A stretch of DNA of 39,452 nucleotides from a virus: the IMG/VR virus record IMGVR_UViG_3300032278_000032, positions 1 through 39,452 of that record; one strand, given 5' to 3'. This document shows positions 1-39,452 of this stretch, piece after piece (within the stretch, counting starts at the first letter, position 1; every line of letters begins with the position of its first letter). The notes beneath the pieces were generated by a model. It saw only the letters and a list, made by a program, of their open reading frames with translations. It made no database searches and was not told the origin of the DNA. The position numbers were made by a program, and so were the translations under genes.

Positions 1-127
1 CCGAGTTTCTGGCCTTTATGGCCTCGCATCGGGTGATCCTGGTCAGCGGTTCCGAGTATGACAAAATGGAGGCCCAACTGGGGGCGGATCTGTGCCGACA
101 GGCCACGGCTGTCTTTCCCTGCCAGGC
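1..127. repeat. Terminal direct repeat, left copy
   Basis: Identical to 39326-39452 over all 127 bases. The joined ends restore one uninterrupted PMM-like reading frame. A length of exactly 127 fits the overlap left by a k=127 de Bruijn assembler on a circular contig better than a biological terminal repeat. Confidence 0.95.
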
Positions 128-641
128 CAGCCAGGCCTACGCCGACGGCCAGCAGGCCTTTAGCCACAAAACAGACTGGCCGCACGGCCTACTGTCCACC
201 CTGGCCACGCTGATCCAGGCCAGCGAATGGCCCTGTAAGTTCGGCGACCATATTCAAGACAGGGGCGCCCTGATCAACTGCTCTGTGCCTGGCCGTCTAT
301 GCTTGCCAGAGGTGAGAAAATATTATACCGCTTGGGACTTGAAACGAAGCGAGCGCCTCCAGATGGCGGCCCAGATCAACGAGCTGTTCCCAGAGCTAGA
401 TTGCACTATCGGCGGCCAGATCTCGGTGGACATTACCCGTCAGGGCGACGGTAAACACAAGCTACTAGACCATATCGAGAACGGGGGCCCAGTGGTGTTT
501 TTCGGTGACAGATGCCAGCAGGGCGGCAACGATTACAGCCTAGCCCAGGCGGTGCAGAAGCTACCGCAGGGCCTAGTTCATCAGGTGGATGATTGGCAGG
601 ACACGGCTCGGCTGTTGAAAGGGGTGTCGAACGGTGCCTAA
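1..641 (+). CDS. Phosphomannomutase-like HAD enzyme, C-terminal part (gene continues from 39244)
   Basis: This is the 3' part of a gene that starts at 39244 and crosses the ends of the circular record; the first whole codon here begins at base 3. The joined protein is 240 residues, about the length of eukaryotic-type phosphomannomutases (PMM, HAD superfamily type IIB). In full-protein numbering it shows the nucleophile motif DMDGT (D10, D12), a SGSEYDK segment near 43-49, IGGQIS at 164-169 and FFGDR..GGND at about 194-205. These match the PMM pattern of GGQIS followed by FFGDK..GGND. PMMs interconvert mannose-6-phosphate and mannose-1-phosphate in the cytoplasm. Mutase activity is inferred; a plain sugar phosphatase is possible. 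It lies between portal and minor head genes and ends in an 8-bp overlap with the next start (GTGCCTAA). Confidence 0.8.
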   Translation, partial: EFLAFMASHRVILVSGSEYDKMEAQLGADLCRQATAVFPCQASQAYADGQQAFSHKTDWPHGLLSTLATLIQASEWPCKFGDHIQDRGALINCSVPGRLCLPEVRKYYTAWDLKRSERLQMAAQINELFPELDCTIGGQISVDITRQGDGKHKLLDHIENGGPVVFFGDRCQQGGNDYSLAQAVQKLPQGLVHQVDDWQDTARLLKGVSNGA

Positions 642-3034: not shown

Positions 3035-4174
3035 ATGGCATTTTCTGGAAAAGCAACATATGACAACACCCCATTGATCGCCGAGGACGTGGCCGATGTC
3101 GTCTCGATGATCTCACCTTTTGAAACCTTTTTACTGGACTATCTGGGCGACGCGGCCGCGCCAGCCACTTCCACCCTGCACGAATGGGTCGAGGATCAGC
3201 TCAGCCCGTCTACCATGATCAACTCGACCTTTATCAACTCGGCCACGGCTGACAGTGCCTTTCAAATCAACGGCACTGGCAACAAAATACAAGTTGGCGA
3301 CCTGCTACGCATCACCGGCAACAACTCGCTTAGTTATGAGGAGATCTTGCAGGTGACGGTGGTAACTGGAGCCGATAGTATTACAGTTAGCCGAGGATTT
3401 GGCGGGGTTGGGCCCTCCTCCCTGGCACCAGGCGGCAGTATTGAACTGATCGCCAACGCCACCCTGGAAGGGGCCGACGTGACCGGCGATCTGTCGCAAA
3501 ACAGATCACGCCAGTATAACTTCGTCCAGCTCTACCAAAAGCCGGTCAACATCTCCGACACACAGCGAGCAGTCGACCTGCTGGGCGGCGTGGGCGACGA
3601 GTACAGCTATCAGGTAACACAGCGCACCCGCGAGATCGTGCGAGATCTGGAGAAAAACACCATCTTGGGTGTGGCCTCTGGCAACTCCTACGGTTCGGCC
3701 TCGGCTTACAGGACCACCAAAGGCCTGTGGCGCTCGATTCCGGCTGGTACTACCAAAAGCGCGGCCTCCTTCTCGGAGTCCTTCCTGGTCAACGAGGTGA
3801 TCCGCTCAGCTTGGGATAACGGGGCCACCGATCTGGACGCTATCGTGGCCGATGGCAACCTGAAACGGTCGCTAGACGAGCTGGCTGATAGCCGCATCCG
3901 TACTACCCAGGACGAAGAAACCTACCGCACAGAGATCAATGTCTTCGAAAGCAGTTTCGGGCGACAACAGATCCTGCCAGCTAACCGCTGGATGCCGGTC
4001 AATTCGCTGATCGTCTTCGGTTCTGACCGCGTCAACGTGGTCAACCTGCAAGGGCGATCATTTCAAAACGTTCCGCTGTCCCGAGTTGGGCACGCAGAAC
4101 GAACCATGATCACTGGCGAGTATACGCTAGAGGTCAAAAATGTAACGGGGCACGCCAAAGCCTATTTAACTTAG
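3035..4174 (+). CDS. Major capsid protein, SU10/DUF5309-like
   Basis: The 379-residue protein begins MAFSGKATYDNTPLIAEDVADVV, a beginning typical of DUF5309 / SU10-type major capsid proteins with the HK97 fold. Around residues 75-135 an inserted beta-rich stretch (GDLLRITG...EEILQVTVV...ITVSRGFGG) resembles the small inserted domain common in this family. The central part (RTREIVRDLEKNTILG) fits the long spine helix. Gene position after a scaffold and a good TAAGGA ribosome site support the call. It should be the most abundant virion protein. The fusion enzyme that follows 6 bp later is unusual and could act on it. Confidence 0.8.
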   Translation: MAFSGKATYDNTPLIAEDVADVVSMISPFETFLLDYLGDAAAPATSTLHEWVEDQLSPSTMINSTFINSATADSAFQINGTGNKIQVGDLLRITGNNSLSYEEILQVTVVTGADSITVSRGFGGVGPSSLAPGGSIELIANATLEGADVTGDLSQNRSRQYNFVQLYQKPVNISDTQRAVDLLGGVGDEYSYQVTQRTREIVRDLEKNTILGVASGNSYGSASAYRTTKGLWRSIPAGTTKSAASFSESFLVNEVIRSAWDNGATDLDAIVADGNLKRSLDELADSRIRTTQDEETYRTEINVFESSFGRQQILPANRWMPVNSLIVFGSDRVNVVNLQGRSFQNVPLSRVGHAERTMITGEYTLEVKNVTGHAKAYLT

Positions 4175-4180
4175 GGGATT

Positions 4181-7048
4181 ATGAGATATAGTATTGCTTT
4201 CTATTGCCAATCGGTACCGTTTGATCAGTCAACCATTAAGCTGGAAACCTCGCTGGGCGGATCGGAATCAGCCCTGATAATGATGGCGCGGCAACTGTCG
4301 CAAAACGGCCATGACGTCAGCGTTTACACCAAGATCCCGCAACAGGAGGACCGCATCAACGACGACTATGGCATCCGCTGGATGGACGTGTCCGAGTTGA
4401 TGGAGAGCCAGATGATGCTGGATTTCGATATATTTATCAGCCAGCGTTTCAGCAACATCTTTCAGTATCCGGTCCAGGCCAGATACAAGGTGTTATGGGT
4501 GGAGGACATCCTCAGCCAGGCCAAGCCCATGATGGGCGATCTGTGGCAGGTGGATGAGATCTTTTATGTCTCCGATTGGCAGCGACAGCAATACGAACAT
4601 TTCCTCGATGACCAGGCCCAGCGGCTGGGTTGGGTGACAAAAAATGTCATCGACCCGGCCCTGATGCCTGATCTGGATACCATCCAGAAAATACCGAACC
4701 GACTGATTCATGTCTCGCGCCCAGAACGAGGGCTAAAACCGCTACTCGAAATCTTTGCCCGTATGAGGGCCGACCAGCCGGAGCTGGAGCTGTATGTCTC
4801 CCGCTACCACTCCATGTATGAGGCCAACCCGCAAGTGGCCCAAGTGATAGACTGGGCGGATAAAGCGGTGGCTGAGGCTGACGGGGTGCACTTTTTGGGC
4901 GAACTGAACAAGGCCGAGCTCTACCAGGAGATAGCCCAGGCCCAACTGATGCTCTATCCTGGCGTCTGGGACTTCGCCGAAACCTCCTGCATCGCCGCCA
5001 TCGAAACCCAGGCCCTGGGCACGCCGCTGGTCTGCACCAACATCGGCGCCTTGAAAGAGACGGTTTCCGGTGGGGCTCTGATCGAGGGCAACGCCGAGAG
5101 GCCAGAATACCAGGAGCGCTTTATTGCCGCTACCAAGCACCTGCTAACCGATCCCAGCGCTTACAAGTCGGCCCAACTTTTAGGCCAGGGCTGGGCCCAC
5201 GAGTACGAGGCCCAAGTGGTAGCCGCTGAGTGGGAGCAACACTTTGACCACTATTTCGAGCAACGATACCAGGACAACCAGGCGGCGGTGATTCAAAACC
5301 TGATCGACCACGACGATTTCCAAGCGGCCCGTATCGCCGATCCCGAGGTGGAGCTGCCAGCCGAAAACGAGAGCGGGGAGGCCTACGCTACCCACTCGGT
5401 GGACCCAGAGCTGGAGTTTTGCACTCAGCGCCATCTGGAGATGTCCAGCTTGATACAGCAGCATTACCAACAGCTAGACAGTAAAAACTATCGGGTGCTA
5501 GATTTGAGCTGCGGTAACGGCACCCTGGCCAGCCTGGTGGCCTCCCAGCTGCCCGAAGCCCAGGTAGAGGGCACCGACTACAGCTCGGAACTGGTGCGCA
5601 TCGCTACCGATTTCGCCCAGAAGAAAGGCTTTGATAATATCACTTTTGAGCAGGCCGATAGCATCGAATGGAGTCGGCAGGAGCTCAGCCAAAAGTACGA
5701 CGCCATCATCTGCGGCGAGTTCTTAGAACACCTTTGGGAAGCCGAAGCGGTGGAGCTGATCAACGCTATCAGCGACAGCTTGAAAGCGGACGGCCTGGCC
5801 ATTTGGTCGGTGCCTTTTGGCCCTATGCACCAGCACCTTTTGCCCTCCATGATCGAGATGCGCGGGCACAAGATCGAGTGGGGGCCGCAGGTTATCCGCT
5901 CAGTTTTTGGCCAGAAAGATCGTTTCGACTTTCGTTGTCTGCGAATGGCCGACACCCCACGCGGCAACCGGACCGGCCACTACATTATCAGCCACGGCCA
6001 GGGGCCGACTGGCCTGATCGACTGGGATAAAAAGATCCAAACTAGACGCCCAGCTCAACGCCTATCGGTGGCCATTATCACCCGCAACAACGACACCGAC
6101 TTGGCCAAATGCCTGAACTCGGTGCAATGGGTGGCTGATCAGATCGTGGTGGTGGATAACGGCTCGCAGGACAACACCTTGCAGATCGCCGAGTCTTACG
6201 GGGCCGAGATCTACCATTCGGACGCTGTTTGGCCGGTGGCGCTGGAGAACGGCGTGCACACGCCGCCCGGTTCTTTTGCCTGGCTGCGCAATCAATCGCT
6301 GGAGAAATGCAACGGCGACTGGGTGTTGTGGATCGACAGCGACGAGGAGCTGAAACAAGCGCAACTGTTACATGCTTATCTGGCCTCGACGATTTACGAC
6401 GGGTTTGTGGTGCGCCAGCATCATCTGGTATTAGATGCCAAAGGGGCCAAAGATCACGACAAACCAGTGCGCCTGTTCCGTAACCACGGAGAGTTTGAGT
6501 TTTACGGTTGCATACACGAACACGCCCAACCCAGCATCAACCAACCCATCGAGCCGGCCCTGGAGCTACCGGACACCTGTATTGCCCATTATGGTTATAC
6601 AATGGAGGCCGACCGTCAAGCTAAATGCAAGGATCGCAACCTGCAACTGCTGGCCCTGGATCGCAAGCTATTTCCGGAGCGACGTCTGGGCCTGCTACTG
6701 CTGCAGCGCGACTATCTCAATATCTTGAAATGGGACGCCCAGGAGTACAAGGGCCTAACTGATAACGGCCAACGGGCGGCCAACTCGATCTATGAAATCT
6801 TCGAGCAGGAGTTTAGCGACCCTAAAGACAGATACTATTCGCTGTCGATGGACATTTTACAGGAGATGATGAGCATCACCCAGCAGGGCATGAGTTACGA
6901 CATCATCGTCCAGCCCAACCCAGAGGGCGGCCAGCTTCGCTTTAACCAGCCGGCCCAGTTGGAGAATTACGTCTTCAAACAGGCCACCAACCTAGTGGCC
7001 GCATCCTTCGCCGAGTCCTCCGACTTGGTGCACTTTGAGGGGTTATAA
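4181..7048 (+). CDS. Trifunctional glycosyltransferase (GT4-like)-methyltransferase-glycosyltransferase (GT2-like)
   Basis: This 955-residue protein joins three enzyme-like domains. Residues 1 to about 350 look like a GT-B glycosyltransferase of the GT4 type: GGSESALIMMARQL near 25, and WDFAETSCIAAIETQALG around 263-280 with the paired glutamates of that family. Residues ~410-600 form a class I SAM methyltransferase with VLDLSCGNGT at about 437 and CGEFLEHL near 510. Residues ~625-800 form a GT2/GT-A domain with SVAIITRNND, IVVVDNGSQDN and a metal-binding DSD at 719-721. The last ~120 residues are unassigned. The product is expected to build or extend a glycan and methylate it in the host cytoplasm. 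It starts 6 bp after the capsid gene, so a virion protein is a natural acceptor, but nucleotide sugar, lipid or DNA-linked acceptors cannot be excluded. Confidence 0.85.
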   Translation: MRYSIAFYCQSVPFDQSTIKLETSLGGSESALIMMARQLSQNGHDVSVYTKIPQQEDRINDDYGIRWMDVSELMESQMMLDFDIFISQRFSNIFQYPVQARYKVLWVEDILSQAKPMMGDLWQVDEIFYVSDWQRQQYEHFLDDQAQRLGWVTKNVIDPALMPDLDTIQKIPNRLIHVSRPERGLKPLLEIFARMRADQPELELYVSRYHSMYEANPQVAQVIDWADKAVAEADGVHFLGELNKAELYQEIAQAQLMLYPGVWDFAETSCIAAIETQALGTPLVCTNIGALKETVSGGALIEGNAERPEYQERFIAATKHLLTDPSAYKSAQLLGQGWAHEYEAQVVAAEWEQHFDHYFEQRYQDNQAAVIQNLIDHDDFQAARIADPEVELPAENESGEAYATHSVDPELEFCTQRHLEMSSLIQQHYQQLDSKNYRVLDLSCGNGTLASLVASQLPEAQVEGTDYSSELVRIATDFAQKKGFDNITFEQADSIEWSRQELSQKYDAIICGEFLEHLWEAEAVELINAISDSLKADGLAIWSVPFGPMHQHLLPSMIEMRGHKIEWGPQVIRSVFGQKDRFDFRCLRMADTPRGNRTGHYIISHGQGPTGLIDWDKKIQTRRPAQRLSVAIITRNNDTDLAKCLNSVQWVADQIVVVDNGSQDNTLQIAESYGAEIYHSDAVWPVALENGVHTPPGSFAWLRNQSLEKCNGDWVLWIDSDEELKQAQLLHAYLASTIYDGFVVRQHHLVLDAKGAKDHDKPVRLFRNHGEFEFYGCIHEHAQPSINQPIEPALELPDTCIAHYGYTMEADRQAKCKDRNLQLLALDRKLFPERRLGLLLLQRDYLNILKWDAQEYKGLTDNGQRAANSIYEIFEQEFSDPKDRYYSLSMDILQEMMSITQQGMSYDIIVQPNPEGGQLRFNQPAQLENYVFKQATNLVAASFAESSDLVHFEGL

Positions 7049-7051
7049 ATC

Positions 7052-7648
7052 ATGGCAGTTCGTTCGAGCATGGCCGACCTGATCACCCATACCAAGCGAC
7101 TGGCTGGCCAAACTGCGGCCAGCTCGCCCTGGACGGAGCAACAGATCCAGGATCAACTGGATCAGAATCGCACCCACTTTGACTATGTTTTACTGGATCG
7201 GGACAGCGACTATCGCCACTTCTGGAGCCGGGCCTGGAGCGGTACGCCGGAGAGCCTGTATCGGCGTCCAGTTTCGCCTCAGCCCATCAGCATCCCCGAC
7301 TTTAGTCTGTTTACCCGTTGTGGGTTCTACGAAACCGACTACAGCCTGCGCAGCGGCCGCACCGAGGACGACACCAGTTACACGGCCGACGATGCCAACC
7401 TCAACGATGGCACCTTCATTTTCAGCACCGCGCCCTCGGTGGAGCTCTATTTCGCCGGCAAAGGCTATAACGTCTACCAGGCGGCGGCTGATCTGATGTT
7501 GGAGACGCCCGACTTTGGACGCTTGGCCCTACAGTCTGAGGGGCGCGGTTCCCTGAGTCAAACCTATGCTTGGAAAGAAAAGGTCCAGGAATACAGCAAA
7601 CGCGGGCGTCAACTCAACAAACGCATCCCGCGATTATTACGAGCCTAA
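7052..7648 (+). CDS. Putative head-tail connector (adaptor-like) protein
   Basis: The 198-residue soluble protein is encoded first in a run of short genes (7052-9305) that fill the place of connector, stopper, neck and tail-completion genes. The N-terminal half is helical and polar (LITHTKRLAGQ.., WTEQQIQDQLDQNRTHF), as in head-tail adaptors that dock on the portal. A beta-rich middle and a helical end rich in K and R follow. I see no diagnostic motif, so the function rests on position and size. The start codon is 4 bp after the fusion glycosyltransferase stop, which suggests cotranslation. Confidence 0.5.
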   Translation: MAVRSSMADLITHTKRLAGQTAASSPWTEQQIQDQLDQNRTHFDYVLLDRDSDYRHFWSRAWSGTPESLYRRPVSPQPISIPDFSLFTRCGFYETDYSLRSGRTEDDTSYTADDANLNDGTFIFSTAPSVELYFAGKGYNVYQAAADLMLETPDFGRLALQSEGRGSLSQTYAWKEKVQEYSKRGRQLNKRIPRLLRA

Positions 7649-7662
7649 ACAAGGAGGCCCAG

Positions 7663-7797
7663 ATGAAAAAACTAATTAATGCCATCGCCCAAGCGGTGGT
7701 GGAGCGTATCCTCAGCGAGGAGCAGGTGGATCAGTTTGTGGATCGTATTGTGGATCTGTTGATCGAACGACTGCAAAACGAGTTTGGTGATTCGTGA
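7663..7797 (+). CDS. Small helical protein of unknown function
   Basis: A 44-residue product starts at ATG 7663, behind a strong AAGGAGG at the right spacing; an upstream in-frame extension lacks such a site. It is a single amphipathic helix by pattern (IAQAVVERILSEEQVDQFVDRIVDLLIERLQNEF). Its stop overlaps the next start (GTGA). It is not recognised; size and position fit a small assembly factor for connector proteins. Confidence 0.6.
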   Translation: MKKLINAIAQAVVERILSEEQVDQFVDRIVDLLIERLQNEFGDS

Positions 7798-8129
7798 ACA
7801 TCTATATTCCAGCCTCTGATATTTCCACAGTCAGCATTCGGCAGGAGGTTAGCGGCCAAGATGCTAGCTTCAACTACACAACCTCGACGACCACGCTGGC
7901 CAGCAATGCCGAAACGGATATTCAACCGTTGACGGCTCGGCTGGTAGAGGATCAGAGCGGCGGTTCTTATCGGATCACTCACAAGATGTTTAGCCAGGTT
8001 TATAGCAACGTGGTTTCGCTGCTGCCTTCCAGCGTGATACGGGTGGTGGATGCGGACCGCACCTATCAACTGCGCGGGGTTAAAGACTACGATTCGCACA
8101 TGGAGAGCGATCTGGAGGAGCTGACTTGA
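7794..8129 (+). CDS. Putative head completion/stopper protein
   Basis: The 111-residue, beta-rich protein starts at GTG overlapping the previous stop and ends overlapping the next start (TTGA), so translation is coupled on both sides. Content and position match head closure proteins of the SPP1 gp16/HK97 type, but no signature residues are visible. The product has an acidic end (ESDLEELT) and no signal or membrane segment. Confidence 0.45.
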   Translation: MNIYIPASDISTVSIRQEVSGQDASFNYTTSTTTLASNAETDIQPLTARLVEDQSGGSYRITHKMFSQVYSNVVSLLPSSVIRVVDADRTYQLRGVKDYDSHMESDLEELT

Positions 8130-8530
8130 AAACTGGTTTTACCTGCGGCAGCTTTGATCTGTTGCACGCGGGGCATGTTTTGATGTTGGAGGAGTGCAAA
8201 GAGCACTGCGACTTTTTACTGGTGGGCCTGCAAACCGATCCCAGTTATGACCGAACGGAAAAACAACGGCCCATACAGACGGTGCTGGAACGCCAGATCC
8301 AACTGGCAGCCGTGCGCCACGTTGACGAGCTAGTGATTTATGATACCGAGGCCGACCTGCGCAACCTGTTGCTTATCCGCCAGCCAGACATCCGCTTTGT
8401 CTCCGAGGAGTACCGCATCAAACCGTTCACCGCTAACGACATCGAGGAGATAGAGATCCATTACAATAGCCGACGCCACGACTTTAGCAGCTCCGAGCTG
8501 CGGGCCAGGTGTCAGCAGGGGGGAAGCTAA
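8126..8530 (+). CDS. TagD-like cytidylyltransferase (nucleotidyltransferase, HxGH type)
   Basis: The product is 134 residues, the usual size for glycerol-3-phosphate cytidylyltransferase (TagD) and relatives. Visible signatures are the nucleotide-binding GSFDLLHAGH (residues 8-17, HxGH), the VRHVDELVIYD segment near 69-79 and a late SSSELRAR near 121-128 that takes the place of the ISTTxI motif. These enzymes join CTP and a phosphorylated alcohol or sugar-like substrate to give a CDP compound and pyrophosphate. The acceptor cannot be told from sequence. The gene begins with TTG overlapping the previous stop and lies among connector genes, an odd place for metabolism, but consistent with co-expression with the other carbohydrate genes of the virion operon. 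Confidence 0.85.
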   Translation: MKTGFTCGSFDLLHAGHVLMLEECKEHCDFLLVGLQTDPSYDRTEKQRPIQTVLERQIQLAAVRHVDELVIYDTEADLRNLLLIRQPDIRFVSEEYRIKPFTANDIEEIEIHYNSRRHDFSSSELRARCQQGGS

Positions 8531-8895
8531 TGGCTATTAAAGCTCAACCGTTCAGCATTAAGCCCAAGCACTTAATTGATGAGATCTTGCGTCAGCAGGA
8601 TCGGCTGATCGAAAAGATCGAAAGCAAAGGCGAGCAGTTCCTGGACGCGGCCGCCCGCCTGACGGCTAACGCCTCAAAAGACAAGGGCCGGCCTGATACC
8701 TGGACCGACCGCACCGGCAACCTGCGCAGCTCGATTACCCATTTCCTACGCCATAAACCCAACGGCCAGCCGGAGGCGGTGGTGGCGGCTGGCATGGAGT
8801 ACGCGGTTCATGTTCACTTTCGCGACGGTTACAAAGTGCTGGTGCCTCCCGATGAGGCCCAGATAAAACCGCTGCTGCAAAAACTTAAACTATGA
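8530..8895 (+). CDS. HK97 gp10-like neck/tail-completion protein
   Basis: I chose ATG 8530, which overlaps the previous TAA and has GGGGGGA seven bases upstream; a GTG at 8509 would be an alternative. The 121-residue protein carries a TDRTGNLRSSI motif (about residues 60-70) followed by AVVAAGMEYAVHVHF, the typical pattern of HK97 gp10-like neck proteins. These join the head completion complex to the tail. Its stop overlaps the next ATG. Confidence 0.75.
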   Translation: MAIKAQPFSIKPKHLIDEILRQQDRLIEKIESKGEQFLDAAARLTANASKDKGRPDTWTDRTGNLRSSITHFLRHKPNGQPEAVVAAGMEYAVHVHFRDGYKVLVPPDEAQIKPLLQKLKL

Positions 8896-9305
8896 AAAGC
8901 AACGATCAATTCTTAACTTCCATCTGTCAGCAGGTCGACGACGGCTCTGTCACTAGCCTGCTGGGCGGAGATATTACCAAAGGGGCCAAACGTCCCGATG
9001 GCACGGCTTACCCCTGCCTAACCGTGGCCAGTGCGCCGTCAGCGGTGCGCGAGAACTACGGCTTCCAGGTGTTCGAAGGCACCATCACTATCTATGCGGC
9101 CTCTAACACTAACGGCTCAGCCGACAGCGCCAGCCTGTCCGCCATCGAAGCGGCCCTGATTACCCTGCTGAATGTCGACGGCTGGGTTGATCCATCCATC
9201 ACCTGTAAATCACAGGTCTATCGCGGCACCTATGGCCCCTTCTGGGACGCCCAGGACGGCCAAGTCCATTATCAATCGCTAACATTTCAATCATACATCG
9301 TATAA
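8892..9305 (+). CDS. Putative tail terminator/completion protein
   Basis: The 137-residue soluble protein follows the gp10-like gene with ATGA overlap and precedes the tail genes, the usual place of the tail terminator (lambda gpU/HK97 gp11-type). It has a mixed alpha/beta pattern: an N-terminal helix, YPCLTVASAPSAVRENYGFQVFEGTITIYA in the middle, and VYRGTYGPFWDAQDGQVHYQSLTFQSYIV at the end. This strand-helix-strand layout is compatible with tail terminators. The call is made from order and fold pattern. Confidence 0.55.
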   Translation: MKSNDQFLTSICQQVDDGSVTSLLGGDITKGAKRPDGTAYPCLTVASAPSAVRENYGFQVFEGTITIYAASNTNGSADSASLSAIEAALITLLNVDGWVDPSITCKSQVYRGTYGPFWDAQDGQVHYQSLTFQSYIV

Positions 9306-9322
9306 CCGAGGAGGATTATTAT

Positions 9323-9874
9323 ATGTCACTAGAGCTAGATATAGGCGCAATACAGTATCCCCAGGTCGACGGCAGCGTGATCCGAGACACGGATCAGGCC
9401 ACCGTTGACGTCAGCGGGCACTATTCAGTGGCTGGAGCTACCGATCAGGAGCGCCAGGCCGAGCTAGAGATCGCCATGTTCAAACGCGGCAAGACGGCCC
9501 TGGCCAACTATGACCGCCAGAAACAGATCGACGACCACAACAAGGAGATCCAGAAGTCAGTCGATCCGCTGAAAGACAGCAGAGTCAACCAACCAACGGC
9601 GCCCACCGCGCCCAGCATGGCGGTAGCTACCGACGCGGGCAAACTGACCATCAGCGGCACGGCCGACACGGCCACCGTTCGGCTGGACTTGGTGATTACA
9701 GGCGAGGGTATCGCCGAGGGGGCCAACTTCACCGATACGCTGCCCGCCTATTCGTATGAGATGGACGAGCCGACGGTCAGCCTGACCATCACGGCTACAG
9801 CTTACAATATTATTGACGACCAGGCAGTCAAAACGGCCACCTGGACGCCAGCAGGCGAACTAAACAAGGAGTAA
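9323..9874 (+). CDS. Tail-region protein with C-terminal Ig-like domain, unknown function
   Basis: The 183-residue product has a strong GAGGAGG ribosome site. The N-terminal ~100 residues are polar and helical (DQERQAELEIAMFKRGKTALANYDRQKQIDDHNKEIQ). A proline/threonine linker (NQPTAPTAPSMAV) leads to about 75 residues of alternating strands (GKLTISGTADTATVRLDLVI..., VSLTITATAYNI), which looks like an immunoglobulin-type beta sandwich. Such domains often decorate tail tubes or capsids. It stands directly before the tail tube gene. I do not recognise a family. Confidence 0.6.
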   Translation: MSLELDIGAIQYPQVDGSVIRDTDQATVDVSGHYSVAGATDQERQAELEIAMFKRGKTALANYDRQKQIDDHNKEIQKSVDPLKDSRVNQPTAPTAPSMAVATDAGKLTISGTADTATVRLDLVITGEGIAEGANFTDTLPAYSYEMDEPTVSLTITATAYNIIDDQAVKTATWTPAGELNKE

Positions 9875-9878
9875 TATC

Positions 9879-10439
9879 ATGGCAACTAATCCCAACAAAC
9901 TTCTAGTGGGCGTGGGTTCATTCAAGCATCAGTGGGGCATCCAAGGCAACAGTCGAACAGCCGGCTATTATATAGACACCGGCGGATTTCGTGACAGCCT
10001 CAGCATCCGTTTCAGCGAGGAGCGTTTTAATTTAGAGGTGGCCGACCATCTGGCCTATGTTAAGTCAGCCCGCACGCGGCTGGACGTCTTTGTCAACACC
10101 TCACTGGTGGAGAACACTTTCGCCAACTTCGGCCTGGCCACCGGTGCCAACACCTGGGGGCCCACTACAGTCACCAGCCGAGAGATTCACGCCCAGGGCG
10201 CGGCCACCATCAACGATCAGGGCCCCTTTGCGGTTAAGTTCACCGGCACAACTACCGGCTCGCTGGGCGTAGGTATCGAGATGCAGAGCTGGATTTTCAG
10301 TCAGTGCGTTCCCGTCACCGACACCGAAATCAGCTACCAGAAAGACGGCGAGACACTGATCCCGGTCAATTTCATGGTACTGGGTACAGTGGCCGGCGCC
10401 GCCTGCGGCTTCGGTTTTACTGACTCGGTGGCCCTGTAA
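9879..10439 (+). CDS. Putative major tail tube protein
   Basis: The 186-residue protein is beta-rich and glycine-rich and is encoded just before the tail chaperone pair and tape measure, the standard place of the tube protein in siphoviruses. The start is ATG 9879 with AAGGAG upstream, as expected for an abundant protein. Segments such as LSIRFSEERFNLEVADHLAYVKSARTRLDVFV and ISYQKDGETLIPVNFMVLGTVAG fit tube-fold strands. There is no sheath gene nearby, which supports a long noncontractile tail. Confidence 0.7.
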   Translation: MATNPNKLLVGVGSFKHQWGIQGNSRTAGYYIDTGGFRDSLSIRFSEERFNLEVADHLAYVKSARTRLDVFVNTSLVENTFANFGLATGANTWGPTTVTSREIHAQGAATINDQGPFAVKFTGTTTGSLGVGIEMQSWIFSQCVPVTDTEISYQKDGETLIPVNFMVLGTVAGAACGFGFTDSVAL

Positions 10440-10442
10440 ATC

Positions 10443-10949
10443 ATGGAGCAAACAGAAGTCGTCAGCACCCTGGCCACCAGGCTGGGGTCGCTGGAGGCAA
10501 AAATGGAGGATCTCAGCAACAACGGTGCGGCCGGCCAGTCTGATCAGATACGCCAGATCATGGCCGACGTGCCAGACGTCTTTGAGGTGCAGACCAGAGA
10601 TGGCGAGGAGATCAGCCTATCACTTCACCATCCCACTTTCTATAAGCTGGAGCTAATAGCGGCCGAGGTTAGAGTGGTGCAGAAAGCAATTGAGGCCCTG
10701 GGCGACCTGGCCGAGGTTAGCATTACCCAGTTTGTGTTGCGGCTGCTAGCCGACCAAACAGTGCGCAACCGGTTTTATAAGATAATGCAGATCGCTTTCG
10801 ATCCGCTACCTGATCCCGACCCGTCGGACCTGTCGATACCGATCGACCATATCAAGCTATTATCACCCACGGAGGTGTTCGATTCGTTGATCAAGAAATC
10901 AACCCCTTTTTTCTTCCAAGTTCTGCAACTGGCCCAGGCAAATCAGTAA
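10443..10949 (+). CDS. Tail assembly chaperone, gpG-like (0-frame product)
   Basis: The 168-residue product is the short form of the tail chaperone. It has an N-terminal coiled stretch, then an acidic alpha-helical core (DVPDVFEVQTRDGEEISLSLHHPTFYKLELIAAEVRVVQKAIEALG). It stands between tail tube and tape measure genes, as lambda gpG does. Close to its end the sequence T TTT TTC (10907-10913) in the reading frame gives a perfect XXXYYYZ slippery heptamer, and the -1 frame remains open to 11167. Chaperones of this type coat the tape measure protein during tail assembly. Confidence 0.8.
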   Translation: MEQTEVVSTLATRLGSLEAKMEDLSNNGAAGQSDQIRQIMADVPDVFEVQTRDGEEISLSLHHPTFYKLELIAAEVRVVQKAIEALGDLAEVSITQFVLRLLADQTVRNRFYKIMQIAFDPLPDPDPSDLSIPIDHIKLLSPTEVFDSLIKKSTPFFFQVLQLAQANQ

Positions 10950-11167
10950 TACCCAACTACCTGGCCTTCGCCAATTTAGAGCTGCAAATGGCCCGTGGGT
11001 TGCATGTGCAGCCCAACACTATCTATCGAAAAATCCCCTATCTGAAGCTGCTGGCCTGGCTGCGTATCCTCGAGTATGAGGACCAGGACCGGCAGCAGCA
11101 GGACAGAGAACAGCGGATCGAGTCGCAGGTGCGGTCGTTCCCTGAGCAATATCGGAGAATGAACTGA
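10443..11167 (+). CDS. Tail assembly chaperone, gpGT-like -1 frameshift product
   Basis: Shifting back one base at the heptamer 10907-10913 joins the first 157 codons to an open -1 frame starting with codon CTT at 10913. That frame runs without a stop to TGA 11165-11167 and gives a 241-residue fusion. The T-like extension (YLAFANLELQMARGLHVQ ... WLRILEYEDQDRQQQDREQ) has no good start of its own. The frame overlaps the tape measure ATG at 11167. This matches the conserved programmed frameshift of lambda-like tails. Frameshift efficiency and any downstream stimulator are not established. Confidence 0.75.
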
Positions 11168-14100
11168 TGGCCACCAATGTCGGCAACTTAGAATTTGTCC
11201 TATCGCTGGACGATAGTCCGCTAAAACGTGGGTCCAGATCAGCCAAGTCAGTCTTAAAGGGGCTGGATGGCGCCTTTGCTAAGATGGCCAACATCTCCCT
11301 GGCCTCCTCTGGGATTGCTACCTTTGGCCGCAAGCTGTACGAGTTCGGCTCCACTTTTGTCAATGCGGCCGCTGATCTGGAGAAGCTGACCCAGGGCCTA
11401 ACGGCGGTGGCTGGTTCCTCGCGTGAAGCTGACGAGCAACTGGACCGGCTGCGCCAGGTGGCCAAACTGCCTGGCCTGGGCCTGGAGGAAGCGGTCGAGG
11501 GCTCGATCAACCTGCAAGCTGTGGGCTTATCCTCCCAGCAGGCCGAAGCGGCGCTGATGTCGTTCGGAAACGCTTTGGCCACGGTGGGCAAGGGAAAAGC
11601 TGAATTAGACGGTGTGATCCTGGCCCTGACTCAGATGGCGGCCAAGGGCAAGATCTCGGCCGAGGAGATCAACCAAATCGGCGAACGGGTGCCGCAGATA
11701 CGGGCCGTAATGCTGGAGGCCTTCGGTACCGCCGTGCCGCAAGAGATCGAGAAGATGGGTATCACAGCCGACGCCTTCATCGACACGGTGACGGCCAAGC
11801 TGGGCGCCCTGCCGTCGGTAGCTGGTGGGGCCTCTAATGCCTTCGAGAACCTGGCTGATGCTACGCGAGGGTTCCAAGCCCAACTGGGCGAACTGATCCT
11901 GCCAGAAGTCACCTCGATGGTCAACGCCCTGGCTGGTACCTTCGAGACGTTGTCGGAGTCTATGAACACGCCATCCGAGCAGATTCGTGACATCGCCTCC
12001 GATTTCGAGGAGGCCAAGGACAAGTTCGACGACCAGAGCAAATCTATCAAGGATCTGACAGAGGAGTACAACAGCCTTAAAGAACAGCTCAGTAAAGTCA
12101 ACCCAGGCACCGAGGAAGCGAGGCGCCTGAACACCAGGCTCCAAGGCACAATCACTAACCTGATCTCGCTGGTGCCCCAACTGGCCGGCAAGCTGGACCT
12201 CGAAACCAGCAGTTTTAAGGATCTGAACACCACCATCGCCACCAACCTGGAGCTGCGCCGCTCCATGCTGACGGCCGAGTTTGTGACCGGCCTGGATAGG
12301 TTCACCCAGCAAGTAGACGCAGCCCAGAAACGGATGTCCGAGCTGAAGACGGCGCAAACTGAGCTGGCCGGCTTAGGCAACCAGAGGCTTGTTACTGACG
12401 CCGGGGCTACCCGAGCCACCGGTATCCGTATGGTGGAAACCGAAGGCGGTGACCAACTGAGCGCCACCGCTCAAAAGCTGATCGGTGATTCAACACAGGT
12501 GGCCGACGTGCTGGTCAGAGTGCGCCAGGAAATGGTCAAGAACGGCGGCACGATGGATCTGCTCGCGGTGAAGTTCGCCCAGGTGGCCGAAGCGGCTGGC
12601 GAGGGCACGGTGCCAGCCCTGCGGGATCTGGCCCAATTGCAGAGCGTCAAGGAGGTGTCGGCCGTTGGTGAATACAACGACGCCCTGGGCACGATGGCGC
12701 AACGGCTCAACCTGTCAACGGCTACGCTGGAGAAGTTCCTGCCGTTAATTAACCAGATACCGGAGGTGGCACAACAGGCGGCCGATGGCCTCGACGGCGC
12801 CGGCGACAGCGCAAAAAAGGCGCTGAAAGCACCATCAGGCAAAATGGTTCTAGGCTCGCCGGAGTGGATGACGGCAAACCTGGAACGATACCGGAAGCTC
12901 AAGGAGGAGAAAGAAAAACTAGAGGCCCAGGAACTCAGCCAGGCCGAGCGGACAGCCACGCAGGCCGAGCGGACAGCCCAGCGGACAGCTAAAGAACGGC
13001 AAAAGATAGAACTGCAAGCCATCAAGGACGGGATCGAGCAGACCCACCAGATGTCAGAGGCGGGGCGCAAGATAAGCGACGAGCGCAGGGCCAAACGGTT
13101 AGAAGATCAGCAGACCCAAAACAAGGCCTCCTGGAGCGCTTACTTTCAGTGGCTAATTGATCGGGAAGTTAAATACGAAAGAGATCGAGTGGCCCGGATG
13201 AATGCCATCGACCGAGCCTCCTGGAGCCATCAGCCCGAAGGGGCGGGCCGTCTCGGTTTTGGCCAGATGGGAGGCGACCGCCCTCTCGAAAACGTTACAA
13301 AAGACGCCCGCACAGCTAAAGATGAACTGGCCGATTTGGCGGGCACCATAACCCAAATATCCGACGCCTTTTCCGCTTTGGGGGAAACTATCGGCTTACA
13401 GGGCAGCGCTTTACAGGAGGGGTTCGACTTCGTGGGTAACGCGGCCAGCGCCATCACACGCATGGCCAGCGGCGACATGGTGGGCGGCGTGATCCAGCTA
13501 ACCAGTGCTGTGATCAATCTGATCCCAGCCTTTAAGAAACTGAAAGAGGCGGCGCGTCAGGCGCCTATACTGGACGACCTGCGGGAGCGCGTTAAAGCCA
13601 TCCCGGACGCCTTTATCGAAGGTGTTGACGAAAGCAGGCTAAACGATAGGATCAAAAAGCTGTCCGGTTTAGAGGAGCAGGCTTTTGATGATCGGCTGCG
13701 GGTTGTCAATCGTAGCATCACAAGATTTGAGGATACCGCCCTACAGATGAGAAGCACCAGCCAGATGCTGGGTGACGCCATGTTGGAGGGTATCCGCGAG
13801 GGGTTCAGCCAGGACAGTATGGACAAGACGCTGGATCTGGTGGGCCAATCAATGGACCGATTATTGTCGGGTATGATCTTAGAGGCGGCCCTGGATAAAG
13901 ACGAACTCCAGCCGAAATTGGATGAGTTGGCAGCGGTAGTCACCGAATCACTGTCCGATGGGATGATCAAGGCATCAGAAGCGACCAAGATCCAAGGACT
14001 GAGGGAGGGGCTGGATAATTTATCAAAGAGAGTGCGCACCAACGCCCTCCGCGCCTTCGACAAACTGGGTTTAGATACTGAAACCCTGTTTCCAGACCCA

Positions 14101-14455: not shown

Positions 14456-17400
14456 ATGTCATTCTCCAGCACCCACTCAGAAATATTAAAACTTAATGGT
14501 TACGATCTGCGCGACCTGGGCGGTACAGCCTCCTTTGAAGCCTCCGCCATCAGCGGCCGCGGCCTAGCGCCTACGCGTGAGCGAGAGCTCCAATTCCCTG
14601 GCCAAATGGGTTCACGTGACTATGGCAGCTATTACGGCAACCGGCGCATCGAGATCAGCGGCACGCTATACGCTGATAACATTCACGACTTTCGGGTTGG
14701 CCTCAACAAAATCAAGGAGCTGTGTCGTTTGCGCACTTTTGTGGATGGCGTCCTTTACGAACAGGTCGAGGCGCAGATGCTATGGTTTGCTGATGAGTCG
14801 GTGATTGCGGGGCCCTATACCATTTCAAACTATGGATCGGGGGCCGGCTATTACTGGCTTACTTGCAAGGATGCCCAGTACAACCTGCCCTCCGCTTACC
14901 CTTCAGATAATGACATGGCCGGGCTGACGGTATCGTTTGCCAATCGGGGGGCCACTGGGGTCGGCGAGTATGAGATCTTCGAGAATGTGGTAGCAACTGG
15001 CCAATTTTTCCTAACCAAAAACCACACTGGTATCAGCCTGGGCGATACCATGTGGATGACCGATAACAGGTACTATTTAGTCAATTATTCGGGCACTATG
15101 AACGAAGAGCACATGACCGCCCAGTGGTTCAAAACTGGTTATTCTAGGCTGACGCTGCCTTTCAAAGCCGTTTACCCGTTTGCGGTATCTGATCCCAAAC
15201 AGGTCGACTTTACGCCTGACATCGTCAACGGATATTTTAAGGCCATCAACACCGGCAACGCCATCAGCTACCCTGTGTACAAGATCAAGGGGGCGGCAGA
15301 TACACCGCAGATCGTGGAGGCCACTCACTCCCTAGTCTGGAACGCTAACAATAATGATGCCTCGAACATCCTGGGCGAATCAGTAACGGCGGACATCAGC
15401 GCGGGCGGCTTCTACGGCCAGACGGGCAAGCTGGACCAGGCTATCGCTTTCGATACTAATTTGGATCAAACCGAAGGGGATTCTGCCAACATCACCACCG
15501 TATCAACGCGGGAGGGTATGGGTATCGGCACCGGCCTAGATGTCAACCAGGGCACACTCAGCTTGTGGATAAAAAAGCCGGGTAATTGGACAACCCTGCC
15601 CGGTCCGGATCTGGCTCCTGGCGGTGGGTTTCATTACGAATACCTTTATAATAATGACTCAGCACCTGACGTTTTCCGCCTTTATCATTTCGTGTCGTCA
15701 CCGACAGCGCCGGCCGATCCTGACCTTAATTATCTCACTTTTGAAGTGGGGGGGGAAGGGTCGTCAATGGACGCCTCTTTGCTGGAGGCCGGTAAATGGT
15801 ATTTTGTTATTTGTCGATGGGATTGCAGGCGGGCCGGGTTTTCAACCGAGTTTGCATCCTATGAGTCGGAGATCGAAGTCTACAGCGACGCTGGGGCACG
15901 GGTTGGTTACAGCGGGGGCACGGGGATAGATGTGCCGACTGCTATCGGTGCCACCTCATATCTGGCCAATACCGCAGCCCTGGCCCATTTTAACGGCCTG
16001 ATCGACGACTTGGCCATTTGGGATCGACCCCTCACCGATACCGAGCGAAGCACCTTAGTCAACAGCGGCACAGGCGTTCGAGCCGATACCGTAGCCTCCA
16101 GCGAGTTGGTGTATTACAGCGACTTCGACCAAACTGTGGGCACTGTGTTTGATGACGAGCAAATCGCCTCCTCTAATATGGATACCTTGCAGTCGGCTGT
16201 GGTGACCGTCGAAAGCGCGACGGTGGCCGCTTATGGTGATGTTATATTCAAGGATGAGGATAGAATAGTTGTATATGATGAAACCGGATATAAGGTGGAC
16301 GGGATGTCCCACTCTATGAACGACGCCACCACTGTCTATCTCCAGGATTCGGGTGGCGCCGGCTCGGTGTTGTATGACGCCGATAAAGTCGGGGTTTATG
16401 CCACGTTGAACGGGACGAATCAGTATTTCCAAACAGCGTCCAATCCGGGTGGCTTACTCTGGCCAGCAGATGATGGGGCCGGGGCTGGGAATATGTCGTT
16501 CTCGTTCTGGGTCAAAACGGAAACGCCGGGGGCTAGCATTGATACCATTCTCTATAAGAGTGGTACCAGTGGCCTTTATGGCCTTGTGCATCTCGTTTAT
16601 GTTAACTCGTCGGGGAATATTTACGGGGCACTCTATGATACCAGCGGCGGACCTTATGATGCGGTGGTGTCGACTACCGTGGTGACAGATGGCAAATGGC
16701 ATCATGTGGCCATCACCTATGAGGACGCGGCTACGCCGGAATACATTTTATACATCGATGGCGTTGCTGAATATACATCGAATACGGTCACAGGCACCCG
16801 TAATTATGATACCGGTACGGCAGGGATCGCAACCATTGGGTCGTACTACGGCGGCGGCAGTTATTTTGAGGGCAGTCTGCGAGATGTGGCCTTTTGGAGT
16901 GGTGATGTGCTTACTGACACTGAGGTTTTAACATTAGCCACTAACCCGCTAGGGGCTGATTCTGTTGGGACGGTAACTTCATGGTGGAAGCTGAACGAGT
17001 CGAGCTTGGCCGCACCGGTTGACAGCGGGGCGCAGTCTAATACGCTTATCAACAACGGAACAGTAACCCGCACCCAGCTCGCATACATCAGCAAAAACCT
17101 GATCGCCGATGGGGGGTTTGAGAATGGCGGGATTGCTAATTGGCACGACGGAGGGGGTGGGGGCGGAACGGGTTATTACCTGGCCAAAAGCACTTCGACA
17201 GTTCGCAAGGATGCCCATTCGCTTTATCTGAATTATGGCTCAAGCTACCTGACAGCAACGTCAGCCGATTTCAATATCGGAAACAGTGAGAGCTATGTCT
17301 ATCGGTTGTGGGGCTACCCGGACGCCACGGCCGACACGCAACTCCTGGTTAAAGATGTCGCCTCCGGCACCTGGCTGACAAATACCAATTTCTCCCATAC

Positions 17401-18805
17401 CAATAGCACATGGAATTTCTTCGAAAGCTGCTTTCAAACAGCGGCATCAGGAACAACGACCGGCAATTTCAATATAGCATCAGGCAGTGGGAACAGCTAT
17501 TGGGACGACCTAAAACTCCTGCCCAACTTGGTGGATAATGGCGGCATGGAGGGGGTATATGGCGGTTCAGGAAACGCTCCAAACTGGACGATATACAATG
17601 CCGGCGCTGCAACGTTCAGTTCCGACGCGGGTGCGCACAGTGGTTCCCTTTGCCAGGAAATGGTTCTACCCGACGCCTCTGCCATCTACCAGCCAAACAG
17701 AACCGTTGTTCAAAATAATTGGTATGAGCTGTCATTTTGGTACAAGGTGGCCTCAGGCACCCCCAGCCTGTGGGTGCAGGCCGGTTCTAATTGGTATGGT
17801 GGGGTGGCGGAATACTTGTCGAAGGCATTTCCGGCGACGACTGACTGGCAACGGGGAAGCCATGTTTTCAAGGCTTCCACCGGTACTCGTCTTGATGTCG
17901 CTTTTAGGGCTAGCAATTATGGCTATACCTTTCTTGTCGACGACGTGTCAGTCGTCCACCGCCCCGATCTGTCCGTCTCCTTCAACAACATGACAAACGG
18001 CTACCGCTTCGAGCCGACGAGGTTGACCAGGGGGTATAAGGCTGGGTTGAATGAGGAGGCCTATTTTGACGATGTAATCATCAGCCCGTCTGAATACGCC
18101 GGACGCATGGTTGTGCGGCCTCAGTTCCCATCTGACACCGGTGAACTTTATCCCTTTTTACTGCGATTGTATGAGGATACAGACAACTTTTTAGAGGTCT
18201 ACTACCTGGGCACAAGCGATAAATTCGTGGTGGCTAAAAAGGTGTCGGGCACTTGGTTAGCGGCCTATTCGCCGGTGATGAGTTTTGCCCAAGACGAGGA
18301 GATCGAAATAGGCTGGTCTTTTGATTCTACAAACGGGCTAAAGGTTTTTGTAAATGGCTCCAATACTGGCGCTACCAATCAGGCCTCAACCACGACATGG
18401 ACGGTGGCGCTGGCCCCCTCGACGGCTTATATTGGCTTTAATGGTGCAACCTATCCCAATGATTACATCATCGACGATCTCGAAATCCTGGCCAAATCGC
18501 AACCAGCCGAATGGTTCGCTGAACAACACGCCAAACGAAACGCGGCTAAAAACCTTAACCTGCCCTTCAAGTACAGCGCGACGTTGAACGCGGGCGACAT
18601 CCTAACCGTCAATGCTCTGGACCCCAAAGTGCGCGGACGGGTTGAAATGTACCACGCCAGCTCTGGCGCTACCTCCAACGGGATGGGAGTGGCCAACGTG
18701 GGCGGATCACTGATGCCGATTTTGTCGCCAACAAAGTCGATGCTTTACTTCCCCAACTCGATACCGTCGGGGGTTGAGATCTATTATAGGGAGAATCACC
18801 AATAA
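14456..18805 (+). CDS. Distal tail (Dit-like) protein with inserted LamG and carbohydrate-binding modules
   Basis: The product is 1449 residues. Residues 1-~170 resemble a siphovirus distal tail protein (LAPTRERELQFPGQMG, RRIEISGTLYADNIHDFRVGLNKI). A segment near 245-280 (FKAINTGNAISYPVYKIKG) and the last ~100 residues (SATLNAGDILTVNALDPKVRGRVEM...SGVEIYYR) look like two parts of the Dit galectin-like domain. Between them lie modules: a LamG/concanavalin-like domain at about 320-540, a second near 645-830 (GKWHHVAITYED, LYIDGVAEYTS), and two CBM-like jelly rolls at about 880-1010 and 1015-1165 (DGGFENGGIANW..., DNGGMEGVYGGS...). One more LamG-like stretch covers 1190-1350. Dit normally links tail tube and tip; the added modules probably bind host surface glycans. 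Confidence 0.75.
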   Translation: MSFSSTHSEILKLNGYDLRDLGGTASFEASAISGRGLAPTRERELQFPGQMGSRDYGSYYGNRRIEISGTLYADNIHDFRVGLNKIKELCRLRTFVDGVLYEQVEAQMLWFADESVIAGPYTISNYGSGAGYYWLTCKDAQYNLPSAYPSDNDMAGLTVSFANRGATGVGEYEIFENVVATGQFFLTKNHTGISLGDTMWMTDNRYYLVNYSGTMNEEHMTAQWFKTGYSRLTLPFKAVYPFAVSDPKQVDFTPDIVNGYFKAINTGNAISYPVYKIKGAADTPQIVEATHSLVWNANNNDASNILGESVTADISAGGFYGQTGKLDQAIAFDTNLDQTEGDSANITTVSTREGMGIGTGLDVNQGTLSLWIKKPGNWTTLPGPDLAPGGGFHYEYLYNNDSAPDVFRLYHFVSSPTAPADPDLNYLTFEVGGEGSSMDASLLEAGKWYFVICRWDCRRAGFSTEFASYESEIEVYSDAGARVGYSGGTGIDVPTAIGATSYLANTAALAHFNGLIDDLAIWDRPLTDTERSTLVNSGTGVRADTVASSELVYYSDFDQTVGTVFDDEQIASSNMDTLQSAVVTVESATVAAYGDVIFKDEDRIVVYDETGYKVDGMSHSMNDATTVYLQDSGGAGSVLYDADKVGVYATLNGTNQYFQTASNPGGLLWPADDGAGAGNMSFSFWVKTETPGASIDTILYKSGTSGLYGLVHLVYVNSSGNIYGALYDTSGGPYDAVVSTTVVTDGKWHHVAITYEDAATPEYILYIDGVAEYTSNTVTGTRNYDTGTAGIATIGSYYGGGSYFEGSLRDVAFWSGDVLTDTEVLTLATNPLGADSVGTVTSWWKLNESSLAAPVDSGAQSNTLINNGTVTRTQLAYISKNLIADGGFENGGIANWHDGGGGGGTGYYLAKSTSTVRKDAHSLYLNYGSSYLTATSADFNIGNSESYVYRLWGYPDATADTQLLVKDVASGTWLTNTNFSHTNSTWNFFESCFQTAASGTTTGNFNIASGSGNSYWDDLKLLPNLVDNGGMEGVYGGSGNAPNWTIYNAGAATFSSDAGAHSGSLCQEMVLPDASAIYQPNRTVVQNNWYELSFWYKVASGTPSLWVQAGSNWYGGVAEYLSKAFPATTDWQRGSHVFKASTGTRLDVAFRASNYGYTFLVDDVSVVHRPDLSVSFNNMTNGYRFEPTRLTRGYKAGLNEEAYFDDVIISPSEYAGRMVVRPQFPSDTGELYPFLLRLYEDTDNFLEVYYLGTSDKFVVAKKVSGTWLAAYSPVMSFAQDEEIEIGWSFDSTNGLKVFVNGSNTGATNQASTTTWTVALAPSTAYIGFNGATYPNDYIIDDLEILAKSQPAEWFAEQHAKRNAAKNLNLPFKYSATLNAGDILTVNALDPKVRGRVEMYHASSGATSNGMGVANVGGSLMPILSPTKSMLYFPNSIPSGVEIYYRENHQ

Positions 18806-22995: not shown

Positions 22996-24381
22996 ATGAT
23001 AACCTGGTGGCAGTTGATCCTGGACGAGATCGTCTTGGTGACGGTGCTGATAGTTGGTATAGGAGCTTTCAATCGCCGATCCCTGGTCGCTTTGCAACGG
23101 CTCATCGCGGAGGAGGTCAAGGCGTATCTAACCGTGATCCTGGAGGAGCACCGTGATAAAGCGGCGGAAATAGTAGGCCAGGGGGTGGAGGCGCGGCTGA
23201 TGGTGGTCAAGGAGGAGCTCAGGGTGGCTTTGGCTGATGTGGTGCAAGCTGAAGCGGCCCAGGACGTGGCCGAAACGGCCACCAGGGCAAAGTCCGATTT
23301 CTTATCAAAGATGAGCCACGAAATCCGCACCCCTATCAATGGCATCGTCGGCTCTCTGGATCTGCTGGACCCGTCAGAGTTGACGACCGTCCAGGCTGAA
23401 GATGTCAACCGAGCCATCCTATCCTCCAACCGCCTACTGGGCATCATCAACCAGATTCTCGATTTCGCCAAGATCGAAGCGGCCGAAATTGAGTACCTGT
23501 GCCATCCCTTTGACCTGGGGCAGACAGTAGAGGATGTGATCAACGTCTTGGCTCCGCAGGCGCAGGAGAAGGGCCTGGCCTTGCGTTCAGAGGTCGGCGA
23601 TGGATTAGTGCTGTCTCGAGTCGGCGATGGGCAAAAGATACATCAGGTTCTGCTTAACTTGGTTGAAAACGCCATCAAGTTCACCACCCAGGGCTCCGTT
23701 GAGCTGAGGGTGGAGCAGGCGCCTACTGGCGGCGCCGTTCGGTTTCAGGTGCAGGATACAGGCATAGGCATTGATAAAGGGCAACTGGAGGCTGTTTTCG
23801 AGTCTTTCGTCCAGCTAGACCAAGCAACCGCCAGCGGTACCGGCTTGGGGCTGTCGATCTGCCAGGAGTTTGTGCAGGGCATGGGTGGGGCTCTCGAGGT
23901 TACTAGCCAGCCCAACGTGGGCACAACCTTCAGCTTCGAGCTGGAGCTAAAGATCGACACAGGCACAGAAGCCGAAGCCGAAGCCGAAGCCGAAGCCGAA
24001 GCAGATCAAAACGACATTAAAGTCCTGGTGGTTGACGATGATGTTGTCAACCAGCAGGTGGCCAGGCGCTACCTGGAGACGATGGGCGTCCAGGCGGCGG
24101 TGGTGGCGGATGGGAAACAAGCGGTTTCCAGTTGGGGGAAAGATGGCTATGACCTGATCCTGATGGATTTGCAGATGCCGGTGATGAATGGCTTTGAAGC
24201 CACGGCGGAGATCAGGCGGCTGGAGAAGATGGTGGACCTGAAGCCGGTCAGGATTGTGGCCCTAACAGCGAGTCTGGTGGGTCAAGTGGAGGAGCAGTGT
24301 CACCAGGCCGGCATGGACGGCTACCTGGCCAAACCGTTCCGGCGCCAGGATCTGCTGGCTGAAATGGAGCTGGCCAAATGA
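22996..24381 (+). CDS. Hybrid sensor histidine kinase
   Basis: The 461-residue protein is a complete hybrid kinase. One membrane segment (about 7-24, IVLVTVLIVGIGAF) is followed by a coiled linker (30-100). The dimerisation/phosphoacceptor domain carries SHEIRTPING with H108. The ATPase domain has the N box NLVENAIKF (N225), G1 DTGIGI (254-259) and G2 GTGLGL (281-286). An (EA)6 linker at 325-336 leads to a receiver domain with acidic D347-D349, phosphoacceptor D391 in LMDLQMP, T424 and K446. All residues needed for autophosphorylation and phosphotransfer are present. There is almost no extracytoplasmic loop, so the signal is probably sensed in the membrane or cytoplasm. No HPt or separate response regulator was found in the genome, so output must use a host partner or the receiver itself. 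The gene has a GGAGGAG site and a 4-bp overlap with the next gene. Confidence 0.95.
   Translation: MITWWQLILDEIVLVTVLIVGIGAFNRRSLVALQRLIAEEVKAYLTVILEEHRDKAAEIVGQGVEARLMVVKEELRVALADVVQAEAAQDVAETATRAKSDFLSKMSHEIRTPINGIVGSLDLLDPSELTTVQAEDVNRAILSSNRLLGIINQILDFAKIEAAEIEYLCHPFDLGQTVEDVINVLAPQAQEKGLALRSEVGDGLVLSRVGDGQKIHQVLLNLVENAIKFTTQGSVELRVEQAPTGGAVRFQVQDTGIGIDKGQLEAVFESFVQLDQATASGTGLGLSICQEFVQGMGGALEVTSQPNVGTTFSFELELKIDTGTEAEAEAEAEAEADQNDIKVLVVDDDVVNQQVARRYLETMGVQAAVVADGKQAVSSWGKDGYDLILMDLQMPVMNGFEATAEIRRLEKMVDLKPVRIVALTASLVGQVEEQCHQAGMDGYLAKPFRRQDLLAEMELAK
23968..24003 (+). repeat. Hexanucleotide tandem repeat (GAAGCC)5 GAAGCA
   Basis: Six GAAGCN units in the kinase gene encode the (EA)6 linker between ATPase and receiver domains. 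Changes in unit number keep the frame, so linker length can vary without breaking the gene. Confidence 0.9.
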
Positions 24382-39251: not shown

Positions 39252-39452
39252 CGCCTCCAGCTACATTTTTGACATGGACGGCACCTTGACACCGCCTGCC
39301 GGGCCGATTGAGGCCGGGTTCGCCTCCGAGTTTCTGGCCTTTATGGCCTCGCATCGGGTGATCCTGGTCAGCGGTTCCGAGTATGACAAAATGGAGGCCC
39401 AACTGGGGGCGGATCTGTGCCGACAGGCCACGGCTGTCTTTCCCTGCCAGGC
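39244..39452 (+). CDS. Phosphomannomutase-like HAD enzyme, N-terminal part (continues at base 1)
   Basis: This is the 5' part of the gene annotated at 1-641, cut by the end of the record. ATG 39244 lies 8 bp inside the portal gene. The protein starts MSNASSYIFDMDGTLTPP, with the HAD nucleophile aspartates D10 and D12; bases 39326-39452 repeat 1-127. Without these first 33 residues the copy at base 18 would lack its catalytic aspartates, so the short version starting there is not a real gene start. Confidence 0.85.
   Translation, partial: MSNASSYIFDMDGTLTPPAGPIEAGFASEFLAFMASHRVILVSGSEYDKMEAQLGADLCRQATAVFPCQ
39326..39452. repeat. Terminal direct repeat, right copy
   Basis: Exact copy of 1-127; see the left copy. 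Removing one copy gives a circular sequence of 39,325 bp. Confidence 0.95.

Follow-up and report, generated by a model that had tools for sequence, protein, structure and literature searches.

The capsid-fusion locus

The window, i.e. the whole stretch of DNA analysed here (39,452 bases), comes from a tailed phage. It has a 127-bp direct terminal repeat (1-127 and 39326-39452) and is, on this basis, probably a closed and complete genome of 39.5 kb. The following features are central to the locus:

3035-4174, plus strand: major capsid protein, SU10 type (PF17236, E 1.1e-64; PHROG 1328 major head protein, E 1.4e-53)
4181-7048, plus strand: GT4-methyltransferase-GT2 fusion, 955 aa (Pfam; nine further full-length and four truncated homologues; invariant catalytic residues)
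4181-5296, plus strand: GT4 domain of the fusion (GT-B fold), approximately residues 1-372 (PF00534/PF13692; PDB profile match to GT-B glycosyltransferases, e.g. 3c4q)
5465-6010, plus strand: SAM-dependent methyltransferase domain of the fusion, approximately residues 429-610 (PF13847, E 3.7e-17; UbiG-like, E 4e-14)
6056-6830, plus strand: GT2 domain of the fusion (GT-A fold), approximately residues 626-883, followed by a C-terminus predicted to be helical (PF00535; GmaR/SunS profile matches; Foldseek SunS/ThuS)

The fusion begins with an ATG, and 6 bp separate it from the stop codon of the capsid ORF. Within the single chain, Pfam matched Glycos_transf_1 at residues 180-329 (E 1e-11), Methyltransf_31 at 434-538 (E 3.7e-17) and Glycos_transf_2 at 629-729 (E 1.2e-12). 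The motifs were EX7E (E267/E275) in the GT4 domain, the SAM motif D441-x2-C-G-x-G, D466 and GEFLEH in the methyltransferase, and D664, D719-x-D721-E722 and IHEH (778-781) in the GT2 domain. The initial annotation had described a 955-residue chain of these three domains, each with its core motifs, and the ORF, the Pfam matches and the motif residues all agree with it.

No transmembrane or hydrophobic segment was found in the fusion by hydropathy (highest 19-residue mean: 1.1), by which measure the product is soluble. AlphaFold gave a poor model of the complete chain (mean pLDDT 51), and only a model of the GT2 domain was used. This model was of moderate quality (mean pLDDT 68), with C-terminal helices predicted at domain residues 196-335. 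TPR was not matched by Pfam in the C-terminal region of the fusion.

Elsewhere in the window, a Dit-like tail protein of 1,449 residues (14456-18805) has laminin-G/ConA-type lectin domains and a carbohydrate-binding module, and it may bind glycan. A hybrid histidine kinase with a response-regulator domain (HisKA, HATPase_c, Response_reg) is encoded just 3' of the tail genes (22996-24381). Two DNA methyltransferase genes of the N6/N4 type are located at 31741-33000 and 36132-37295.

Relatives carrying the fusion

IMG/VR was scanned with growing alignments of the fusion, and 13 further contigs with the fusion were found. Early viral and genome scans gave no relative, or no bacterial one. The single bacterial match (Baaleninema, L022) was set aside: it shares the GT4 part only and has GT41 and TPR instead.

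The fusion lies behind the capsid gene in all 14 contigs (window counted), at a distance of 6-2,082 bp. The start 6 bp behind the major capsid gene, as originally noted, is real, and this exact spacing is kept solely in the window and in L003, its closest relative (91% identity over 206 residues). In the other contigs, one to three genes intervene and the gap is 250-2,082 bp. Ten fusions, including that of the window, are full-length, and their identity to the window's fusion is 34-46%; the other four are cut by contig ends. Capsid identity among the 14 contigs reaches as low as 37%. Chance is excluded as an explanation of the architecture, because nine other contigs have it complete and four more have it in truncated form.

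The initial annotation had named a loss of catalytic motifs in close relatives as evidence that would speak against it. This was looked for, and the motifs were kept in all ten full-length homologues: E267/E275, G445/G447/D466, E513/E516/H517, D664, D719/D721/E722 and H779/E780/H781 are invariant. The dN/dS of the fusion was 0.02-0.11 in all unsaturated whole-gene pairs and below 0.1 in each catalytic domain (two comparisons split by domain). Judged from these substitution patterns, the fusion is under strong purifying selection as an enzyme.

Independent capsid scan and trees

As most contigs had been found via the fusion, a second, independent scan started from the capsid protein. The fusion was present in 13 of 20 loci with >600 bp downstream. 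At a capsid identity of ≥57% and with sufficient downstream sequence, all loci carried it (9/9), and more distant loci were mixed. It was absent in L040, L041/L044, L046 and L042 (capsid identity 28-38%), for which >600 bp downstream were present. L004/L033 and L036 were left out of this fusion-lacking set because their contigs end too early. Conservation of the position behind the capsid gene, a point raised at the outset, was confirmed.

A single gain or loss of the fusion is enough to explain its distribution on the best capsid tree, whose deep forks are weakly supported. The main clades agree between the fusion and capsid trees, and the pairwise identities correlate with r 0.84 (uncorrected for shared ancestry). 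The two trees conflict for L011, L012 and L014: the GT2 domain is 99% identical between L011 and L014, whereas the capsid is 98% identical between L011 and L012. This conflict suggests recombination within the module.

L013 and L019 have portal, capsid and fusion genes clearly homologous to those of the window, and L019 also has a tape-measure match. The window-type scaffold, head-morphogenesis, neck, tail-tube (major tail) and Dit genes were not detected by profiles in these two contigs.

The length of the head-morphogenesis gene varies from 331 to 1,986 aa among close relatives (L011 2988-7352; L012 1267-7227; L014 6635-7630; L018 1220-6397). Moreover, a PAPS-reductase-like protein is inserted in the neck region of L014 (14364-15104).

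Sugar-donor and accessory genes

Two genes of the window are of a sugar-donor type, one of which runs across the record ends:

39244-39452, plus strand: phosphomannomutase, first part, with the FDMDGTLTPP motif (reading frame; the 127-bp terminal repeat closes the genome)
1-641, plus strand: phosphomannomutase, remainder (PF03332, E 3.1e-22; PMM2 in PDB, E 1e-19)
8126-8530, plus strand: nucleotidyltransferase, HldE C-domain/TagD-like (PF01467; TIGR02199, E 2e-19, under its curated cut-off)

The phosphomannomutase has 240 aa in all, is of the eukaryotic type and carries the DxDGT motif. It is new relative to the initial annotation and sits between the portal gene and the head-morphogenesis gene, overlapping on each side by 8 bases. 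L007 has the same placement, and the gene is missing between these two genes in L003/L005. A similar gene-start sequence (TG-CTAACGC) was observed at both ends of the insert.

The nucleotidyltransferase is a possible sugar-donor enzyme; in L009 and L029 it directly adjoins the capsid gene on the 3' side. In L013, a galactokinase-like GHMP kinase is encoded between capsid and fusion (8662-9822). Directly behind the capsid gene and before the fusion, L013 (7931-8683) and L019 (8363-9310) encode a radical SAM/SPASM protein, possibly another virion-protein modification. L018 has an extra methyltransferase just 5' of the scaffold gene. The picture suggested by these gene sets is one of a fixed transferase core with exchangeable, patchy donor genes.

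Acceptor of the enzyme and rival explanations

The nearest solved structures to the GT2 profile were GmaR (E 2e-26, ~200 residues) and SunS (E 4e-14). Foldseek with the GT2 model placed SunS/ThuS at the top (SunS E 5e-11) and TarS lower. The features of GT2 membership, DxD and (I/V)HE, are present, with D719/D721/E722 and H779/E780 invariant in the ten full-length fusions and aligned to GmaR and SunS. GmaR is a protein GlcNAc transferase acting on flagellin (PMC9638930). Enzymes of the SunS type act on peptides, and Ser and Thr of the glycocin enterocin F4-9 are described as carrying GlcNAc in O-linkage (PMC8620827). By this homology, a protein is the favoured acceptor. However, LPS and teichoic acid are also substrates of homologous GT2 enzymes (PHROG 13126 beta-1,4-glycosyltransferase; TarS), and PDB sampling is biased.

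A modification of host cell-surface polysaccharide or LPS core, resulting in a superinfection block or an altered receptor, would fit the GT4/GT2 and HldE-C-like folds, which are typical of LPS-core pathways, as well as the name of PHROG 13126. We regard this as unlikely: the fusion is located inside the late head module and stays with the capsid gene while other genes are replaced, and the nearest solved GT2 relatives are protein or peptide modifiers. Membrane-type seroconversion by a Gtr module (membrane GT and flippase) is also unsupported, as the fusion has no transmembrane or hydrophobic segment and no GtrA/GtrB-like match appeared among the ORFs scanned. The acceptor could instead be another protein: the tail tube, a receptor-binding protein or a protein on the host surface, for example flagellin. 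GmaR, which among solved structures is most closely related to the GT2 domain, glycosylates flagellin, and mycobacteriophage glycans are described on the tail tube too. Yet the tail-tube, neck and tail genes of the window type are undetectable in L013/L019, which retain the fusion, and this reading also appears rather improbable to us. The same two contigs make the capsid the best acceptor candidate, because the tail genes are replaced while capsid and fusion persist; the capsid is also abundant and exposed.

Two further explanations were given very little weight. Phage glycosyltransferases are reported to hypermodify DNA bases with sugars (Pyle et al. 2024, cited in PMC12619734), but no base-hypermodification enzyme was found among the window ORFs scanned with Pfam (the scan took in part of the small ORFs), and a position in the late head module also argues against such a role, which is hence unsupported and highly improbable. 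It is just as hard to believe in a passenger cargo gene with no role in the virion. Phages do carry GT morons, and the adjoining donor genes come and go, but the fusion combines strong purifying selection with invariant active sites and a stable position over deep divergence.

Candidate modification sites on the capsid were considered as well. All fusion carriers share an invariant cluster of Ser/Thr at capsid residues 60-74. A search for capsid Ser/Thr columns unique to carriers did not clearly set them apart: L041, which has no fusion, has the same cluster, and for this reason no glycosylation site is claimed. Cys S-glycosylation of the capsid was discarded: the capsid protein of the window contains no Cys.

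Proposed function

We consider it reasonably probable that the fusion is a virion-protein glycosylation enzyme that makes a short methyl-capped glycan, with the capsid protein as the likeliest acceptor. It would be a soluble late enzyme made alongside the capsid protein. The SunS/GmaR-like GT2 domain would start the glycan on Ser/Thr of a virion protein, the GT4 domain would lengthen it by one more sugar and the methyltransferase in the middle would O-methylate it; alternatively, the methyl acceptor may be the protein itself. The phage phosphomannomutase and nucleotidyltransferase, and the GHMP kinase in one relative, would supply the donors. The architecture, the intact catalytic residues, the purifying selection, the link with the capsid gene and the donor-type genes are seen in the sequences; a protein acceptor, the capsid as that acceptor, the order of action, the sugars involved and the methylation of the glycan are inferred from them. 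Gene context is no proof of what the enzyme acts on, and the system is known here from the sequence of uncultured phages. Glycosylation and methylation of virion proteins, as first suggested, is still the best reading and is partly supported; motifs and position are kept. Of the two acceptors then named, capsid or tail, the relatives favour the capsid.

More tentatively, and with somewhat less than even confidence, the fusion may be a glycan factory in a single gene, shared by the whole lineage, in which GT2 initiates, GT4 extends and the methyltransferase caps; it would be inherited with the capsid and served by exchangeable donor genes. Each phage would then show a methylated glycan shell of its own, the equivalent among prokaryotic viruses of the glycan on chlorovirus capsids.

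Glycosylated phage virions have been reported from few systems. If the proposal is true, virion glycosylation would look like an old, inherited trait in this uncultivated phage lineage, and the fusion would offer a compact means of making methylated, protein-bound glycans. The purpose of such a coat would become testable, i.e. particle stability, adsorption or escape from bacterial defence.

Comparison with known systems

The initial annotation knew of no established role for such a fusion in a virion operon. This has to be corrected, as glycosylation of mycobacteriophage capsid and tail-tube proteins and the chlorovirus enzyme A064R have already been reported.

For mycobacteriophages (Che8 and others; Freeman et al. 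2023), capsid and tail-tube proteins are described as glycosylated by enzymes of the phage (PMC11256854, PMC12619734). Both systems have phage-encoded glycosyltransferases, and the active-site residues of the window's enzyme are intact by sequence. The GT genes of Maravista (F1) are described near the genome 3' end, whereas here GT4, methyltransferase and GT2 form one chain beside the capsid gene, known here from the gene sequences. A064R of chlorovirus PBCV-1 (GT-GT-methyltransferase), like the window's fusion, combines two glycosyltransferases and a methyltransferase in one viral polypeptide, and it works on the glycan carried by the major capsid protein (PMC7826918); A111/114R is listed beside it. 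A064R differs in belonging to an algal virus, in making N-glycans and in its order (GT-GT-MT versus GT4-MT-GT2); the likeness drawn here is one of domain make-up.

GmaR of Listeria shares a homologous GT2 domain over ~200 residues, but its glycosyltransferase is joined to TPR and antirepressor domains and not to GT4 and methyltransferase domains. The peptide S-glycosyltransferases SunS/ThuS also have a homologous GT2 domain, and SunS is prophage-derived; they modify Cys of peptides, in contrast to the Cys-free capsid protein here. The podovirus MW202524 (L002, Manatee Spring; 3120-11978) has a GT2-GT4 fusion, more glycosyltransferases and methyltransferases shortly behind the capsid gene. These are separate genes with the methyltransferase outside the fusion, and the identity is ~27% in the GT4 part only.

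Glycosylated virions have precedents, and so do capsid enzymes of the GT-GT-MT kind (chloroviruses); the arrangement described here is a new form of them. By analogy, the window's fusion probably works like the mycobacteriophage and chlorovirus systems, from which it differs in domain order, fold set, host type and capsid linkage.
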